From Hellea sp. (lineage in GTDB: Bacteria > Pseudomonadota > Alphaproteobacteria > Caulobacterales > Maricaulaceae): a stretch of DNA of 37,740 nt. Location of the stretch: the NCBI GenBank assembly GCA_020629875.1, contig JAHDCL010000019.1, positions 1 to 37,740 of the forward strand. The letters run 5' to 3'. Position 1 is the stretch's first letter, and every line of letters starts with the position of its first letter. The position numbers and the translations under genes were made by a program. This document shows, piece by piece, positions 23,844-28,248 of the stretch. The notes below the pieces were generated by a model. The model saw only the letters and a program-made list of their open reading frames with translations. It did no database searches and was not told the origin of the DNA.

Positions 23844-24905
23844 TTATTTTTTTAAGCCGTGCTTTCGTAAAAGGCCGCGAAAACTGTGATAGGTCAAGTC
23901 TAAATGCTCTGCAGCTTTGCCCTGGTGGCCCTCTGAGAGCTTCAATGCTTCATCTATTAAGCGGCGCTCAAAGATCATAACGCGTTCCGCAAAACTCGCT
24001 TTGTTCTCCAGTGGCGCGGGAGGTGTTTGCAATGCCTCAATATTGGAGGGGTCACTAGAGGACTCTGTGGTCTCTCTATAAATAGGGGGCGGAGAAGACG
24101 ATGCGGGCGCGGCATCTCTTAGGCGGTAAGGTCCTTCAAAGGGGTCAAAGCTCAGAGATGAAATTGGGGTGCTCAGGCTCTCATCCCGAAGATAGGCTTG
24201 GGCGATGTTCCGTTCGATAACGGCTTTTAACTCTCTTACATTCCCTGCCCACTGACGGGTTTCCATTTCCACCATGATTTCAGGGGTGAAGCCAGGAAAG
24301 CTCTCTGCTCCCAAAGATGCCGCAACTTTGCGGCCAAAATGCTCAGCAAGCGGAGCGACGTCCTCGGGGCGGTAGCGTAGAGGTGGTATTGTAATAACGT
24401 CAAAGGCCAAGCGGTCGACGAGGTCGACGCGAAATTCGCCGCGGGCGACGGCCGCGGGTAGATCTCTTCCTGTTGCCGTCACAATGCGGACATCGACCTG
24501 CTGGGTATGGGCCTCCCCGCCAGCTTCATATTCTCCATATTCGACAGCTCGCATCAGTTTTTCCTGCAGGCGCGGAGAGAGTGCATCTATATTGTCTAAA
24601 AATATAGTGCCACCGTCAGCCTCGTAAAATCGGCCATTCGTATCATCGCGGCCATCCATGAATGTTTCGCCGAAAAGCTCGCGGTCAAGCATCTCGTCGG
24701 AAAAGGCCGCGCAGTTTACCTTCACGAACTGAGCTTCCCAGCGCGGGGAAAGGAAATGCAAACGCGAGGCAATCATCTCTTTTCCCGTGCCGCGTTCACC
24801 CACCACAATGACGGGGCGGTCTAGAGAGGCGGCATCGGATACCCTGTCGAGTAGGGCGTGGAAGGAATCGGATTGTCCAATGGGCTGTGCGGGTATAGCT
24901 GACAT
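23844..24905 (-). CDS. pspF: PspF-like transcription regulator with degenerate sigma54 contact loop
   Basis: 353 residues: an AAA+ domain without an N-terminal receiver (about 5-235), a variable Ser/Pro-rich linker (250-295), and a Fis-type helix-turn-helix at 305-352 (GHQGKAAEHLDLTYHSFRGLLRKHG, very PspF-like). Walker A GERGTGKE (36-43) and the two arginine-finger arginines (Arg159, Arg165 in FRVDLVDRL) are intact. However, where PspF has GAFTGA this protein reads ETFMDGRDDTN (80-90), three residues shorter, and the Walker B Asp-Glu is Asp104-Asn105 (FLDN). GAFTGA contacts sigma54 and the glutamate is needed for ATP hydrolysis, so classical sigma54 activation is doubtful. It diverges from the psp operon with a 212-base gap. 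The gene is assigned by sequence and position. Confidence 0.88.
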   Translation of the reverse strand: MSAIPAQPIGQSDSFHALLDRVSDAASLDRPVIVVGERGTGKEMIASRLHFLSPRWEAQFVKVNCAAFSDEMLDRELFGETFMDGRDDTNGRFYEADGGTIFLDNIDALSPRLQEKLMRAVEYGEYEAGGEAHTQQVDVRIVTATGRDLPAAVARGEFRVDLVDRLAFDVITIPPLRYRPEDVAPLAEHFGRKVAASLGAESFPGFTPEIMVEMETRQWAGNVRELKAVIERNIAQAYLRDESLSTPISSLSFDPFEGPYRLRDAAPASSSPPPIYRETTESSSDPSNIEALQTPPAPLENKASFAERVMIFERRLIDEALKLSEGHQGKAAEHLDLTYHSFRGLLRKHGLKK

Positions 24906-25065
24906 TGACTATTTATACTAATATTTTTGGCCATATTGCAATAATTAATAGTAAAAAATACTAAATTCATCCATCGTTCACTTTGGAAAAATGAAAAAAC
25001 ACAATTAAATCAGTGACTTAAAACTTCTCGACTCTTTTGAGGAAAATGCACATATTGAATTTGTC

Positions 25066-25095
25066 GCTGAGGCAAACGTCTCAGCATAGGAGACG
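25066..25095 (+). promoter_or_regulatory. Two competing hairpins in the psp operon leader
   Basis: GCTGAG (25066-25071) pairs with CTCAGC (25080-25085), while CGTCTC (25077-25082) pairs with GAGACG (25090-25095). The two 6-base stems share 25080-25082 and cannot coexist. They end 22 bases before the first ATG. No canonical sigma54 promoter (GG-N10-GC) was seen between pspF and this gene, and the promoter was not identified. Confidence 0.45.
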
Positions 25096-25117
25096 ACAAA
25101 AAAGAAAGAGAGAGAAA

Positions 25118-25279
25118 ATGACTTATAGAACTTTTGACATAGACGGCGGTAGCGAAACAGGAAGTGCCATTCCTGCTTTTGAAACAAGTAACCCAGTCCG
25201 TCACACACGTTCACGCCGTCACAGCGCATTGATGGGCCGTCGTTCAAGCGGCGCTCGTATCGCTGGCTTCGGATTTTAA
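25118..25279 (+). CDS. Small basic protein at the head of the psp operon, unknown function
   Basis: 53 residues, MTYRTFDIDGG at the start, then a Ser/Arg/His-rich region (RHTRSRRHSALMGRR) ending GARIAGFGF. The ATG at 25118 follows the purine-rich AGAGAGAGAAA, a plausible ribosome site; a longer in-frame reading from 25037 would cross the leader hairpins and is unlikely. There is no membrane span. A second small gene begins 15 bases downstream and pspA follows. I do not recognise the family. The clean ribosome site and tight operon spacing support a real gene. Confidence 0.6.
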   Translation: MTYRTFDIDGGSETGSAIPAFETSNPVRHTRSRRHSALMGRRSSGARIAGFGF

Positions 25280-25294
25280 GAAAAAGGAACGAGC

Positions 25295-25435
25295 ATGAGC
25301 CGTTATGACGATTACAGAGAAGAAGGTGATAGCTGGCGCTTAAAGGGCGCCCGCTTCCTTCGCTACCTTTCAACGCGCAAGATGGAATGTTGGGGCTTTT
25401 TCGCCGCCGGTTTTATCATCTCAGCAATTTTTTAA
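25295..25435 (+). CDS. 46-residue protein with a C-terminal membrane segment, upstream of pspA
   Basis: ATG at 25295, preceded by AAAAAGGAACGAGC with AGGA at a good distance, and TAA at 25433-25435. The first 30 residues are charged (MSRYDDYREEGDSWRLKG, then FLRYLSTRKM) and the last 16 are hydrophobic (CWGFFAAGFIISAIF), suggesting a tail-anchored membrane protein. It lies between the 53-residue gene and pspA, whose start is 24 bases downstream. No known family; it is too short for routine gene finding. A role in sensing or in recruiting PspA to the membrane is a guess from position. Confidence 0.6.
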   Translation: MSRYDDYREEGDSWRLKGARFLRYLSTRKMECWGFFAAGFIISAIF

Positions 25436-25459: not shown

Positions 25460-26143
25460 ATGGGAATTTTTTCTCGCATGGGTGACATCATCAACTCCAA
25501 CCTCAACGCCATGATTGACAAGGCAGAGAACCCGGAGAAGATCGCCCGCCTGATTATTCAGGAAATGGAAGACACATTGGTTGAAGTTCGCACAGACGCT
25601 GCTCGTAACATCGCAGAGCGTAAAGAACTATCTCGCAAAGCAGAGGCTTATAAAGGCCGCGCCGGCGAGTGGGCCGCAAAAGCAGAACTCGCTTTGACCA
25701 AAGATCGCGAAGATCTCGCCCGGGGTGCCCTTGCTGCTAAACAGCAAGCCGAGCAAATGAGTGAAGTCGTTCTAAAAGAAATTGATATCTTGGACGAAGC
25801 TGTTGCTAAGGCGGATGGTGATTTGTCAAAGCTTCAAACAAAGCTCGACGAAGCAAAAGCCAAACATAAGGCGCTGATGATGCGGACAAATGTGGCCAGT
25901 GGTCAGATCCGGATGCGCACAGTGCTTAAAGACAGTAAAGTTGACGATGCCTTAGCGCGCTATGAGCGTATGGAGCGCAAAGTTGATGAGCTTGAAGCTC
26001 ATGTTGAAGCTTTTGATCTTGGGTCAGGAGAGAGCCTCGAGAGCCAATTCGCAGCCCTAGAAGCTGATGAGGCCATTGAAGACGAGCTCGCAGCATTGAA
26101 AGCTAGCCTTAAGAAGCCAGCAAAAAAAGCGGCAAACAAGTAA
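25460..26143 (+). CDS. pspA: Phage shock protein A (PspA/IM30 family)
   Basis: 227 residues, typical of PspA. The N-terminus MGIFSRMGDIINSNLNAMID is the amphipathic membrane-binding helix and first coiled-coil segment; NPEKIARLIIQEMEDTLVEVR follows, then long coiled coils to about residue 215, with RTNVASGQIRMRTVLKD in the hairpin. The C-terminal tail is Ala/Lys-rich. PspA belongs to the ESCRT-III superfamily, assembles on stressed inner membrane and keeps its integrity; in enterobacteria it also inhibits PspF. The ribosome site TAAGGAGAC lies 7-13 bases before the ATG. A long stem-loop separates it from pspB. Confidence 0.96.
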   Translation: MGIFSRMGDIINSNLNAMIDKAENPEKIARLIIQEMEDTLVEVRTDAARNIAERKELSRKAEAYKGRAGEWAAKAELALTKDREDLARGALAAKQQAEQMSEVVLKEIDILDEAVAKADGDLSKLQTKLDEAKAKHKALMMRTNVASGQIRMRTVLKDSKVDDALARYERMERKVDELEAHVEAFDLGSGESLESQFAALEADEAIEDELAALKASLKKPAKKAANK

Positions 26144-26249: not shown

Positions 26250-26501
26250 ATGTTACGACCCGAGATTCTTGTATTCATGATTCCGATTATCGCCATCGTT
26301 ATGGGCATTGGATCAGGAATGCTAAAAATGCACTATAAACACAAAGAGCGAATGATGAACCACATGAGCGGTGATCAGATTGCGGAGCTCGATCAGATGT
26401 CAAAGATAGCCGATATACTAGATCAGCGCGTAAATGTTTTAGAGCGCATCCTCGATGACGAGGTTCCGAATTGGAGAGAGAATAATGACAAAACGATATA
26501 A
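26250..26501 (+). CDS. pspB: Phage shock protein B
   Basis: 83 residues, matching the family. One N-terminal membrane span (about 5-25), then HYKHKERMMNHMSGDQIAELDQMSKIADILDQRVNVLERILDDEVPNWR, the cytoplasmic helical part with the PspB pattern of L-x-x-M and RV-x-x-LE-x-ILD. In enterobacteria PspB and PspC sense envelope stress in the inner membrane and relieve PspA inhibition of PspF. The ribosome site AAAGAGAGAG precedes the ATG. Its last 17 bases overlap the start of pspC, indicating coupled translation. Confidence 0.9.
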   Translation: MLRPEILVFMIPIIAIVMGIGSGMLKMHYKHKERMMNHMSGDQIAELDQMSKIADILDQRVNVLERILDDEVPNWRENNDKTI

Positions 26502-26964
26502 GAACAAAGCTCATCGCGCACTAAATGACATGAATTGGGATTGGAGTGATGATGGCTACGAATATTCGGAGCCGCATAAAAAGCTTCGCCGGAATAAAAT
26601 AGATGGCGTATTTGGCGGTGTCTGTTCCGGTTTTGGAGATTACTTCGGAATTGATCACACAATTATGCGCATTGCATTTGTCTTGTCTGTGATTTTCCTC
26701 GGCTTCCCAATTCTGGCATACTTTATCCTCTGGATTTTTATTCCTAAGGATACACGGGCACCCTATCGCCGGGAATATCGAGAAGCGCGTAAGGCCCGCC
26801 GTAAACAACGGGAAAACCCAGAAGAGCCAATGGTTCGCACGACAAGCTTCCGTGATGTTAAATCAAAATTCAGATCCTTGGAGACTCGGATGCAAGATTT
26901 AGAGCGGTCAATCACGAGTAAAGAATGGAAATTGCGCCGCGACTTCCGGGACCTAGAAAACTAG
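26485..26964 (+). CDS. pspC: Phage shock protein C
   Basis: 159 residues from the ATG at 26485, which follows GGAGAGAG; a longer frame from 26455 would only add residues inside pspB and has no ribosome site. The PspC domain runs from about 31 to 88: KLRRNKIDGVFGGVCSGFGDYFGIDHTIMRIAF, then a hydrophobic span FVLSVIFLGFPILAYFILWIFIP. A basic stretch and a C-terminal coiled coil (SKFRSLETRMQDLERSI) follow, as in proteobacterial PspC. It works with PspB in the inner membrane as a stress sensor. The gene overlaps pspB by 17 bases; the next small gene starts 39 bases downstream. Confidence 0.92.
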   Translation: MTKRYKNKAHRALNDMNWDWSDDGYEYSEPHKKLRRNKIDGVFGGVCSGFGDYFGIDHTIMRIAFVLSVIFLGFPILAYFILWIFIPKDTRAPYRREYREARKARRKQRENPEEPMVRTTSFRDVKSKFRSLETRMQDLERSITSKEWKLRRDFRDLEN

Positions 26965-27222: not shown

Positions 27223-28248
27223 ATGTTAAAACGTTTAACTTTGGCCGCTCTCGCTAGCACCATGCTAGCAGGCACCGCCTTTGCACAGGGTCCTGAACTT
27301 TTCATTCAAGACTTTGTGGGAACTATTAAAATAGAAAATAGTGCCTCCGACAAAATTACCATCACCTCCGACAAAAATATGCAAGGGGTGAACCTCGTCG
27401 AGCAGGGTAGAAACCTTAAAATCGATGGGGGTATTACCAAGCCTGACGGAAATAAATGTAAGGGCTATTACGGTAGTTATAGCTTTGGTCTCTTCAATAA
27501 AGAGAAGAACGGTGAGTTTGGAGGCTATGAGGACCTGGAAGATTACCCGCAGATTACTGTCCGAGCACCGAGTGATACGGTTCTGGTCATCGACAATTCA
27601 ATTACATTTCTCACAGCCGAAGACTTAGGCGAAACTGACTTAGATTTACGCTCCTGCGGGAAGGTAGATTTGGGTGATGTGGCAGGCGATTTGCGCGCAG
27701 ACATACGAGGATCAGCCGACTTAACGGCAAGGAATGTAGGCGATGTGGATGTTACCATAAAGGGATCAGGCGATCTGGATGTTGAAAATGCAGGCCTTGT
27801 CTTTTTGTCAGTCTCTGGATCCGGAGATGCAGACTTTGGTGATGTTAAAAGCGTTGACGTTAGTGTTTCAGGCTCGGGCGACATCAGCTTTGAGAATGTG
27901 GCGGGCTCCTTAGCCGCGGAAAGCCGAGGGTCAGGTGACATCGATGTTGGTGATGTCGACGGTGATCTCATCTATGATGCGAGCGGATCAGGAAATCTGG
28001 ATGTTGGCGATGTCTTGGGCAAGCGTATTTCAGTCGATGTTTCGGGCAGTGCGGATGTTTCTATCGATGGGGGTGATGTTGAAATGCTAACAATCACCGC
28101 CAGCGGCGCCAGCGATATTGACTATGACGGCACAGCAAAAAATGCCGACCTTATAGCCTCAGGCGCGAGTGATATTTACGTTGAGGAAGTCACCGGTGAA
28201 GTGCGCAGCAAGGAACGCGGCGCGGCAGATATTTCTGTCAGCAATTAG
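27223..28248 (+). CDS. Secreted GIN-domain (DUF2807) beta-solenoid protein of the psp operon
   Basis: 341 residues with a signal peptide (residues 1-21, ending GTAFAQ). The mature protein has the head-GIN/DUF2807 character: an initial strand region FIQDFVGTIKIENSASDKITI, a Cys pair (Cys78, and Cys144 in DLRSCGKVDLGD), then regularly spaced repeats of the type D-V-x-G-SGD (at least six copies of SGSGD, RGSAD, SGSAD or GAAD), which build a right-handed beta-solenoid. Related toast-rack/DUF4097-like domains occur with PspC-type proteins in other bacteria. The ribosome site GGAGGCGG is strong. As the last gene of the operon it is probably a periplasmic partner of the Psp membrane complex; that is inference. 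Confidence 0.8.
   Translation: MLKRLTLAALASTMLAGTAFAQGPELFIQDFVGTIKIENSASDKITITSDKNMQGVNLVEQGRNLKIDGGITKPDGNKCKGYYGSYSFGLFNKEKNGEFGGYEDLEDYPQITVRAPSDTVLVIDNSITFLTAEDLGETDLDLRSCGKVDLGDVAGDLRADIRGSADLTARNVGDVDVTIKGSGDLDVENAGLVFLSVSGSGDADFGDVKSVDVSVSGSGDISFENVAGSLAAESRGSGDIDVGDVDGDLIYDASGSGNLDVGDVLGKRISVDVSGSADVSIDGGDVEMLTITASGASDIDYDGTAKNADLIASGASDIYVEEVTGEVRSKERGAADISVSN

Follow-up and report, generated by a model that had tools for sequence, protein, structure and literature searches.

Degenerate PspF proteins and their psp promoters in Hellea and related bacteria

How is a psp operon controlled if the PspF encoded beside it carries neither the GAFTGA loop that touches sigma-54 nor the catalytic glutamate of Walker B? 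This question is raised by a locus of Hellea sp. that lies in the window, the whole stretch of 37,740 nucleotides analysed here (contig JAHDCL010000019.1). From the comparison of this locus with those of its relatives, we consider it likely, with a probability of about three in four, that the protein has left the sigma-54 system and is a PspA-responsive, probably non-hydrolysing DNA-binding regulator, which likely activates psp from a promoter of the sigma-70 type.

The PspF of the window and its locus

The locus resembles the psp locus of E. coli in the divergent arrangement of pspF and pspABC, in the AAA+ fold, the Fis-type helix-turn-helix (HTH) and the W56 loop of PspF, in a TTAG-N9-CTAA site upstream and in an IHF-like site before the promoter. 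Unlike its E. coli counterpart, the PspF of the window has no GAFTGA, no Walker B Glu and no sensor-I Asn, its target has no -24/-12 element, and its score against the NCBIfam model TIGR02974 (374.7 bits) stays under the curated cut-off of 443.55. The features are as follows.

23844..24905, minus strand: degenerate PspF, an AAA+ protein without the GAFTGA loop and the Walker B Glu, with a Fis-type HTH (open reading frame, profiles, alignment)
24905..24965, no strand: UAS-like stretch; up to three repeats in relatives by eye, in the window only the one at 24948-24964 is good
24948..24964, no strand: UAS-like inverted repeat ATAGTAAAAAATACTAA, TTAG-N9-CTAA with one mismatch; exact copy in the E. 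coli pspF-pspA region
25008..25020, plus strand: IHF-like site AATCAGTGACTTA, 8 of 9 positions of the IHF consensus WATCAANNNNTTR; same position in many canonical relatives
25028..25033, plus strand: -35-like TCGACT of the putative replacement promoter (pattern match)
25051..25056, plus strand: -10-like CATATT, after a 17-base spacer (pattern match)
25060..25100, plus strand: strong predicted stem-loop in the predicted psp leader (25057-25117, plus strand), by folding; -16 kcal/mol, z -4.29, no shuffle equal
25118..25279, plus strand: small open reading frame s1, 53 aa, MTYRTFDID...GFGF; similar frames upstream of pspA in relatives
25295..25435, plus strand: small open reading frame s2, 46 aa, ending in ...RYLSTRKMECWGFFAAGFIISAIF; similar frames in relatives
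25460..26143, plus strand: pspA (TIGR02977, over cut-off)
26250..26501, plus strand: pspB (TIGR02976, over cut-off)
26485..26964, plus strand: pspC (ATG at 26485, or at 26455; Pfam PspC, over cut-off)
27223..28248, plus strand: DUF2807 (head-GIN) protein (Pfam)

The product of pspF comprises 353 aa with AAA+/HTH layout (open reading frame and Pfam search), and its closest solved relatives are the E. coli PspF structures PDB 9q90, 5nss and 4qnm (E ~1e-70). A score of 154.5 bits against Pfam PF00158 places it in the AAA+ family fold. Alignment to the E. coli structures agrees with the earlier note, which had read residues 80-90 as ETFMDGRDDTN and as an L1 loop three residues short and without GAFTGA: E. 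coli ELFGHEAGAFTGAQKR corresponds to ELFG---ETFMDGRDDTN. The same alignment bears out the claim that Walker B carries D104-N105 instead of Asp-Glu (FLDEL in E. coli, FLDNI here), and the parts said to be retained were also found, namely Walker A with K42, both arginine fingers (R159/R165, equivalent to E. coli R162/R168) and the Fis-type HTH (PF02954). Two further positions differ: A stands in place of E. coli R131, and G in place of N149, the sensor-I residue. In the PspA-docking patch L52 and W56 are retained, and Y51 is replaced by F.

An AlphaFold2 model of the protein (41 sequences, pLDDT 87.1, pTM 0.69), with low-confidence stretches at residues 270-274 and 276-296, predicts that the bEBP AAA+ fold is retained. 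NtrC1 (1ny5; Z 29.1, rmsd 2.1, 247 aligned) and PspF (2c9c; Z 29.0, rmsd 2.2, 244 aligned) tie as structural matches.

Frame s1 is an Arg-rich ORF of ~50 aa, and ORFs similar to it at E <= 1e-3 number 26 among the 40 degenerate loci, the window included, and 4 among the 21 canonical ones. Frame s2 has a hydrophobic C-terminal stretch, and its counterparts were recognised by eye in the 19 loci inspected. Neither s1 nor s2 has a Pfam match, and both may be unnamed psp-operon proteins. The product of pspC reaches 89.6 bits against TIGR02978, under the cut-off of 104 (stretch searched 26488-26964), and pspB and pspC overlap by 17 bases with the start at 26485 or by 47 with the start at 26455. Of the 40 degenerate loci, 32 have a similar DUF2807 gene downstream, as do 5 of the 21 canonical ones; contig ends cut some of the loci.

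Degenerate PspF and the sigma-54 element among relatives

Within the family of the window, 137 genomes were searched with the PspF model TIGR02974, which yielded 23 genomes over the cut-off and, at lower scores, a set of short proteins. The comparison was made with 61 loci, 60 retrieved and that of the window; 40 of them are degenerate (39 genomes, one of which, G117, holds two) and 21 canonical. The loss is present in all six PspF genes found in the genus, that of the window included, and degenerate copies also occur in one-contig genomes (G005, G045, G172), which excludes a sequencing error. The possibility raised by the earlier note, that close relatives have GAFTGA and DE and that the copy of the window reflects an assembly error, fails likewise, since none of the six genus copies has the motif and the change recurs in 45 loci, some of them in single-contig genomes. 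The loop is shorter by three residues in g1, g11, g5 and g2, by seven in g17, and by nine in g16 and some others. No second, canonical PspF in a degenerate genome was found among the 23 genomes over the cut-off in this family, within the completeness of the assemblies. Two long-frame matches of like score, G099 (535 aa) and G121 (624 aa), were taken as other regulators because of their low scores against the PspF of the window (153 and 142 bits) and because a psp neighbour was not found. In G117 (98% complete, 2% contamination) each of the two degenerate pspF loci (L071, L073) has its own pspABC.

When 398 genomes of the order were searched, five low scorers emerged, all in a second family and all with a broken loop. 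This gives 45 degenerate loci in total, 40 in the family of the window and 5 in the second family, with open reading frames. In the second family 39 of 62 genomes have a match at the threshold used, 5 degenerate and 34 with intact loop (6, 27 and G296, in which the upstream side is cut off). Two of the five, L215 and L218, still have DE at Walker B together with a broken loop L1, which suggests that the loop was lost before the Walker B Glu. Among the first 40 of the 80 named loci listed, no deleted loop was present (35 exact GAFTGA, 5 close variants), and the class-wide search gave a deleted loop in none of the nine retrieved matches; the remaining class matches were judged from score alone, with G791 truncated at a contig end. 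The loop sequences of Hyphomonas and Henriciella records resemble those of family f2 of the order, which points to Caulobacterales as this order. As far as sampled, degenerate PspF appears confined to two families.

The -24/-12 element of pspA follows the state of the loop. At the usual place all 45 degenerate loci lack it, while a match was present in all 93 canonical loci scored and in E. coli. In a first set the 21 canonical loci and E. coli all had a match of 14.3-20.6 bits, as good as none of 200 shuffles, whereas none of the 40 degenerate loci of the window's family had the element at the promoter place. The highest score anywhere in a degenerate locus of this set was 12.6 bits (L066), away from the promoter place, as were the best sites of the five degenerate loci (of 40) with a shuffle p <0.05. 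In a second set 32 of 32 canonical loci had a match (10.3-19.2 bits) versus none of the five degenerate loci of the second family (2.4-9.3 bits). A third set of canonical loci, scored without shuffle control, gave matches in 40 of 40 (9.7-19.6 bits), of which 31 lie at nt 129-135 and 9 outside this interval; the faintest of them (L272, 9.7 bits) would not stand alone. Eight loci of this set read GSFTGA or GAFSGA. For the loci represented in the tree (76 rows), the highest score between nt 80 and 160 was >=10.3 bits in the 32 canonical and <=3.8 bits in the 44 degenerate rows, and loop state equalled promoter state in 76 of 76, a row count that is not a probability because the sequences are related. 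An independent-pairs test yielded three supported pairs, or four if all branches are counted, and every pair pointed the same way (p 0.25). At the level of sequence, the target promoter has changed in step with the protein.

The number of losses was approached by gene trees. On a PspF tree computed without the loop and Walker B columns, three changes fall in the window's family and four if the second family is included; for the latter 17 rows were added (12 canonical, 5 degenerate), most of them picked to cover families. A single degenerate clade across both families is rejected (AU p 5.45e-6), whereas one within the window's family alone is compatible with the data (p 0.118). In this tree of PspF rows only, degenerate rows stand beside or are nested among canonical ones. 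The tree of another gene, pspA, interleaves both classes in much the same manner: degenerate g17 loci are nested among canonical g17 loci, and canonical rows stand between degenerate g16 and the main clade; some forks of this tree are moderately supported, and its bootstrap had not settled. L101, L081 and L077 (N-rich or cut) were left out of the PspF trees and L101, L077 and L092 out of the PspA tree, and the 40 canonical loci of the third promoter set are in no tree. Judged from these trees, two losses are firm, and three to four are likely.

The putative replacement promoter and the probable role of degenerate PspF

In the 40 degenerate copies of the window's family K42, L52 and W56 are each present in 40 of 40, D107 and R227 in 39, R162 in 27, R168 in 26, R131 in three and N149 in one, while T86 and E108 occur in none. 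All 40 degenerate copies and 21 of 22 canonical ones have F at position 51. The W56 loop is described as the PspA-docking patch of PspF in a part of PMC3791423. In the main degenerate clade and in degenerate g17 the HTH shows identities of 0.73 and 0.83, compared with 0.64 and 0.76 in two canonical sets, and identity at E. coli positions 111-140 is 0.50 and 0.47 in degenerate versus 0.89 and 0.88 in canonical sets. For the degenerate pairs and regions where it was computable, dN/dS was 0.01-0.14, values that are rough because many pairs approach or exceed saturation at synonymous sites. As judged from these comparisons, PspF is under purifying selection in the degenerate loci. The neighbourhood is retained as well: pspA adjoins pspF in all 40 degenerate loci, and overall a pspA (E < 1e-10) was found beside pspF in the window and in 59 of the 60 retrieved loci, the pspA of L092 being cut by a contig end.

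The putative operators persist in the window's family. Within the first 75 bases, 36 of the 40 degenerate loci contain TTAG-N9-CTAA with at most one mismatch (2.3 expected by shuffling), and 19 of the 40 contain an exact copy (0.17 expected). No enrichment of this motif was observed in the five degenerate loci of the second family (0.6 versus 0.69 by shuffling). An IHF-like site at nt 96-118 was detected in 35 of 40 degenerate (2.2 expected) and 15 of 22 canonical loci (0.9 expected). Canonical g18 loci have a different HTH helix (YDQ.RHY), and their upstream repeats resemble GTG...CAC, not TTAG...CTAA, as if operator and HTH had changed together.

A -35/-10 pattern, [TG][CTA]GA[CA][AT]-N16/17/18-[CTA]AT, was defined after inspection of the degenerate loci. 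Within the window's family 38 of the 40 degenerate loci and none of the 22 canonical ones contain it, against 1.6-2.7% per locus by shuffling; 37 of the 38 matches lie at nt 122-136, and that of L080 at nt 140 looks spurious. The spacer has 17 bases in the main clade (16 in g5), 18 in g16 and 16 in g17, a variation to be expected from separate origins, and the -10 hexamers are imperfect (CATNNT). In the second family none of the five degenerate loci has the pattern, and a fixed block TANTGAATC at nt 151 of the upstream region occupies the place of the sigma-54 promoter in all five (L215-L219). Since both the pattern and an enrichment of operators are missing there, replacement of the -24/-12 element by a sigma-70-type -35/-10 promoter is supported in the window's family only. 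RpoH is one candidate reader of the putative new promoter, for which groES upstream regions of 17 relatives were compared by eye. The suggestion of the earlier note, that the protein may bind ATP and DNA without remodelling sigma-54 holoenzyme and could be a repressor or a sigma-70-type regulator, perhaps with PspA still as the ligand, is strengthened by these results, with -24/-12 absent in 45/45 degenerate and present in 93/93 canonical loci, a -35/-10 pattern in the window's family, K42, L52 and W56 retained in 40 of 40 copies, and HTH and operators that persist.

Loss of the Walker B Glu alone would leave PspF functional, as E108Q is reported in a part of PMC4132715 to activate at low ATP. 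Loss of the sigma-54-touching loop, of the catalytic Glu and of the target -24/-12 element together would represent a coherent exit from sigma-54, and neither sigma-54 engagement nor normal ATP hydrolysis would any longer be expected of degenerate PspF. Beside the divergent pspABC, PspF very probably binds the same upstream operators via its conserved HTH, most likely as a regulator that binds a nucleotide without hydrolysing it and whose activity PspA determines by docking on the W56 loop. Control of psp under PspA is suggested because operators, bend site, HTH and PspA-docking loop are all kept. The psp promoter would be activated through an IHF-assisted contact with RNA polymerase of the sigma-70 type. 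We favour such activation by polymerase contact in view of the far-upstream position of the operators, the persistence of the bend site and the analogy to R. capsulatus NtrC. The distance of 60-125 bp between the operators and the -35 argues against simple repression, although activation is not thereby proved. From the operators abutting its start, PspF would in addition repress its own gene, and this self-repression is likely because operator-like repeats abut the pspF start codon. We infer ATP binding without hydrolysis, binding of DNA and PspA, the direction of regulation and the choice of a sigma-70-family holoenzyme from the sequences.

More tentatively, and with somewhat less than an even chance, the locus may have undergone a repeated switch of holoenzyme in which the former motor became a non-hydrolysing, ATP-bound switch that is still gated by PspA and acts over an IHF bend on a sigma-70-type polymerase. 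To the same tentative degree, a sigma-70-type core would have been swapped in for the -24/-12 core while enhancer, bend site, HTH and inhibitor-docking surface stayed.

A less probable explanation, which we nevertheless take seriously, is that degenerate PspF represses its own gene and possibly psp, a repression relieved by PspA or stress, with psp otherwise expressed constitutively via a sigma-70-type holoenzyme. Self-repression is plausible given the operator-like repeats at the pspF start codon, HTH and W56 loop are retained while ATPase residues are lost, and a part of PMC3162934 describes that GAFTGA-defective TyrR moved to sigma-70 and that a TyrR paralogue can repress. However, operators far upstream of the new -35, with the IHF-like site between them retained, suit contact at a distance, and the imperfect -10 suits a promoter that needs help.

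It was also considered whether the cells had simply lost sigma-54. The rpoN gene was found in 122 of the 137 genomes of the window's family, and rpoN loss is excluded as the cause since the gene is present in 37 of the 44 degenerate genomes (32 of 39 in the window's family, 5 of 5 in the second). It was not found in the window's assembly (81% complete), which means little because groES is likewise missing there. Retention of rpoN would suit a degenerate PspF that is still coupled to sigma-54 by an unusual route, through another surface or at other promoters, and in a part of PMC12421884 the GAFTGA-less NtrC of Caulobacter with a mutated DNA-binding domain is reported to activate some sigma-54 genes. 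We regard this as very improbable, since all 45 loci have lost the neighbouring -24/-12 element and other GAFTGA activators, two of which are encoded in the window's genome, could explain the persistence of rpoN. The same genome also encodes, on contig C37 (L003, L005), NtrX-like and NtrC-like response regulators, both without GAFTGA, which by domain and neighbours are probably NtrX and NtrC. Least probable of all is a decaying pseudogene, for which selection on PspF would have lapsed after psp gained another promoter: the loss of many ATPase residues and the low identity at positions 111-140 would fit, but the frames are open in 45 loci, dN/dS is low where computable, the HTH is as conserved as in canonical PspF and the operators persist.

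Degenerate PspF compared with known regulators

Control of a sigma-70-type promoter by a relative of sigma-54 activators would have precedents. For NtrC of Rhodobacter capsulatus and Caulobacter, L1-deleted bEBPs, regulation of sigma-70 promoters is reported in a part of PMC10274813, according to which Caulobacter NtrC needs the residues for ATP binding and hydrolysis. Degenerate PspF shares with these proteins the deletion of loop L1 and retains its HTH. Unlike PspF, they are phosphorylated response regulators, and PspF has also lost the Walker B Glu. In contrast to GAFTGA-less NtrC, the input of degenerate PspF is likely PspA in trans, and canonical PspF sister loci show the promoter as it was before the switch.

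TyrR, DhaR, HupR and VpsR have other ligands and domain layouts, and none of them is PspF. NtrX of the Brucella abortus group is not known to carry GAFTGA, and that of B. abortus has a receiver domain and another signalling role. Its structure (PDB 5m7n) has the bEBP-type AAA+ fold in common with the PspF of the window (Z 28.6, rmsd 4.0, 256 aligned). A defective GAFTGA and a move to sigma-70 are described for TyrR, DhaR and HupR, and proposed for VpsR, in a part of PMC3162934. GAFTGA-less bEBP relatives at sigma-70 promoters are already established. Neither a PspF of this kind nor a promoter switched along with it was seen among the papers listed in searches of the open-licence literature on PspF, on GAFTGA loss and on broader themes, and a 2024 survey of psp systems, in the part available, leaves PspF outside its detailed analysis (PMC11237479).

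PspF is a standard model of a sigma-54 activator. In the families described here gene and target are the same, yet some species have the sigma-54 machinery at this locus and related ones do not, and the promoter differs accordingly. These loci offer a direct experimental system for studying the loss of enhancer-dependent transcription, and likewise for the control by PspA once inhibition of an ATPase is no longer its possible output.
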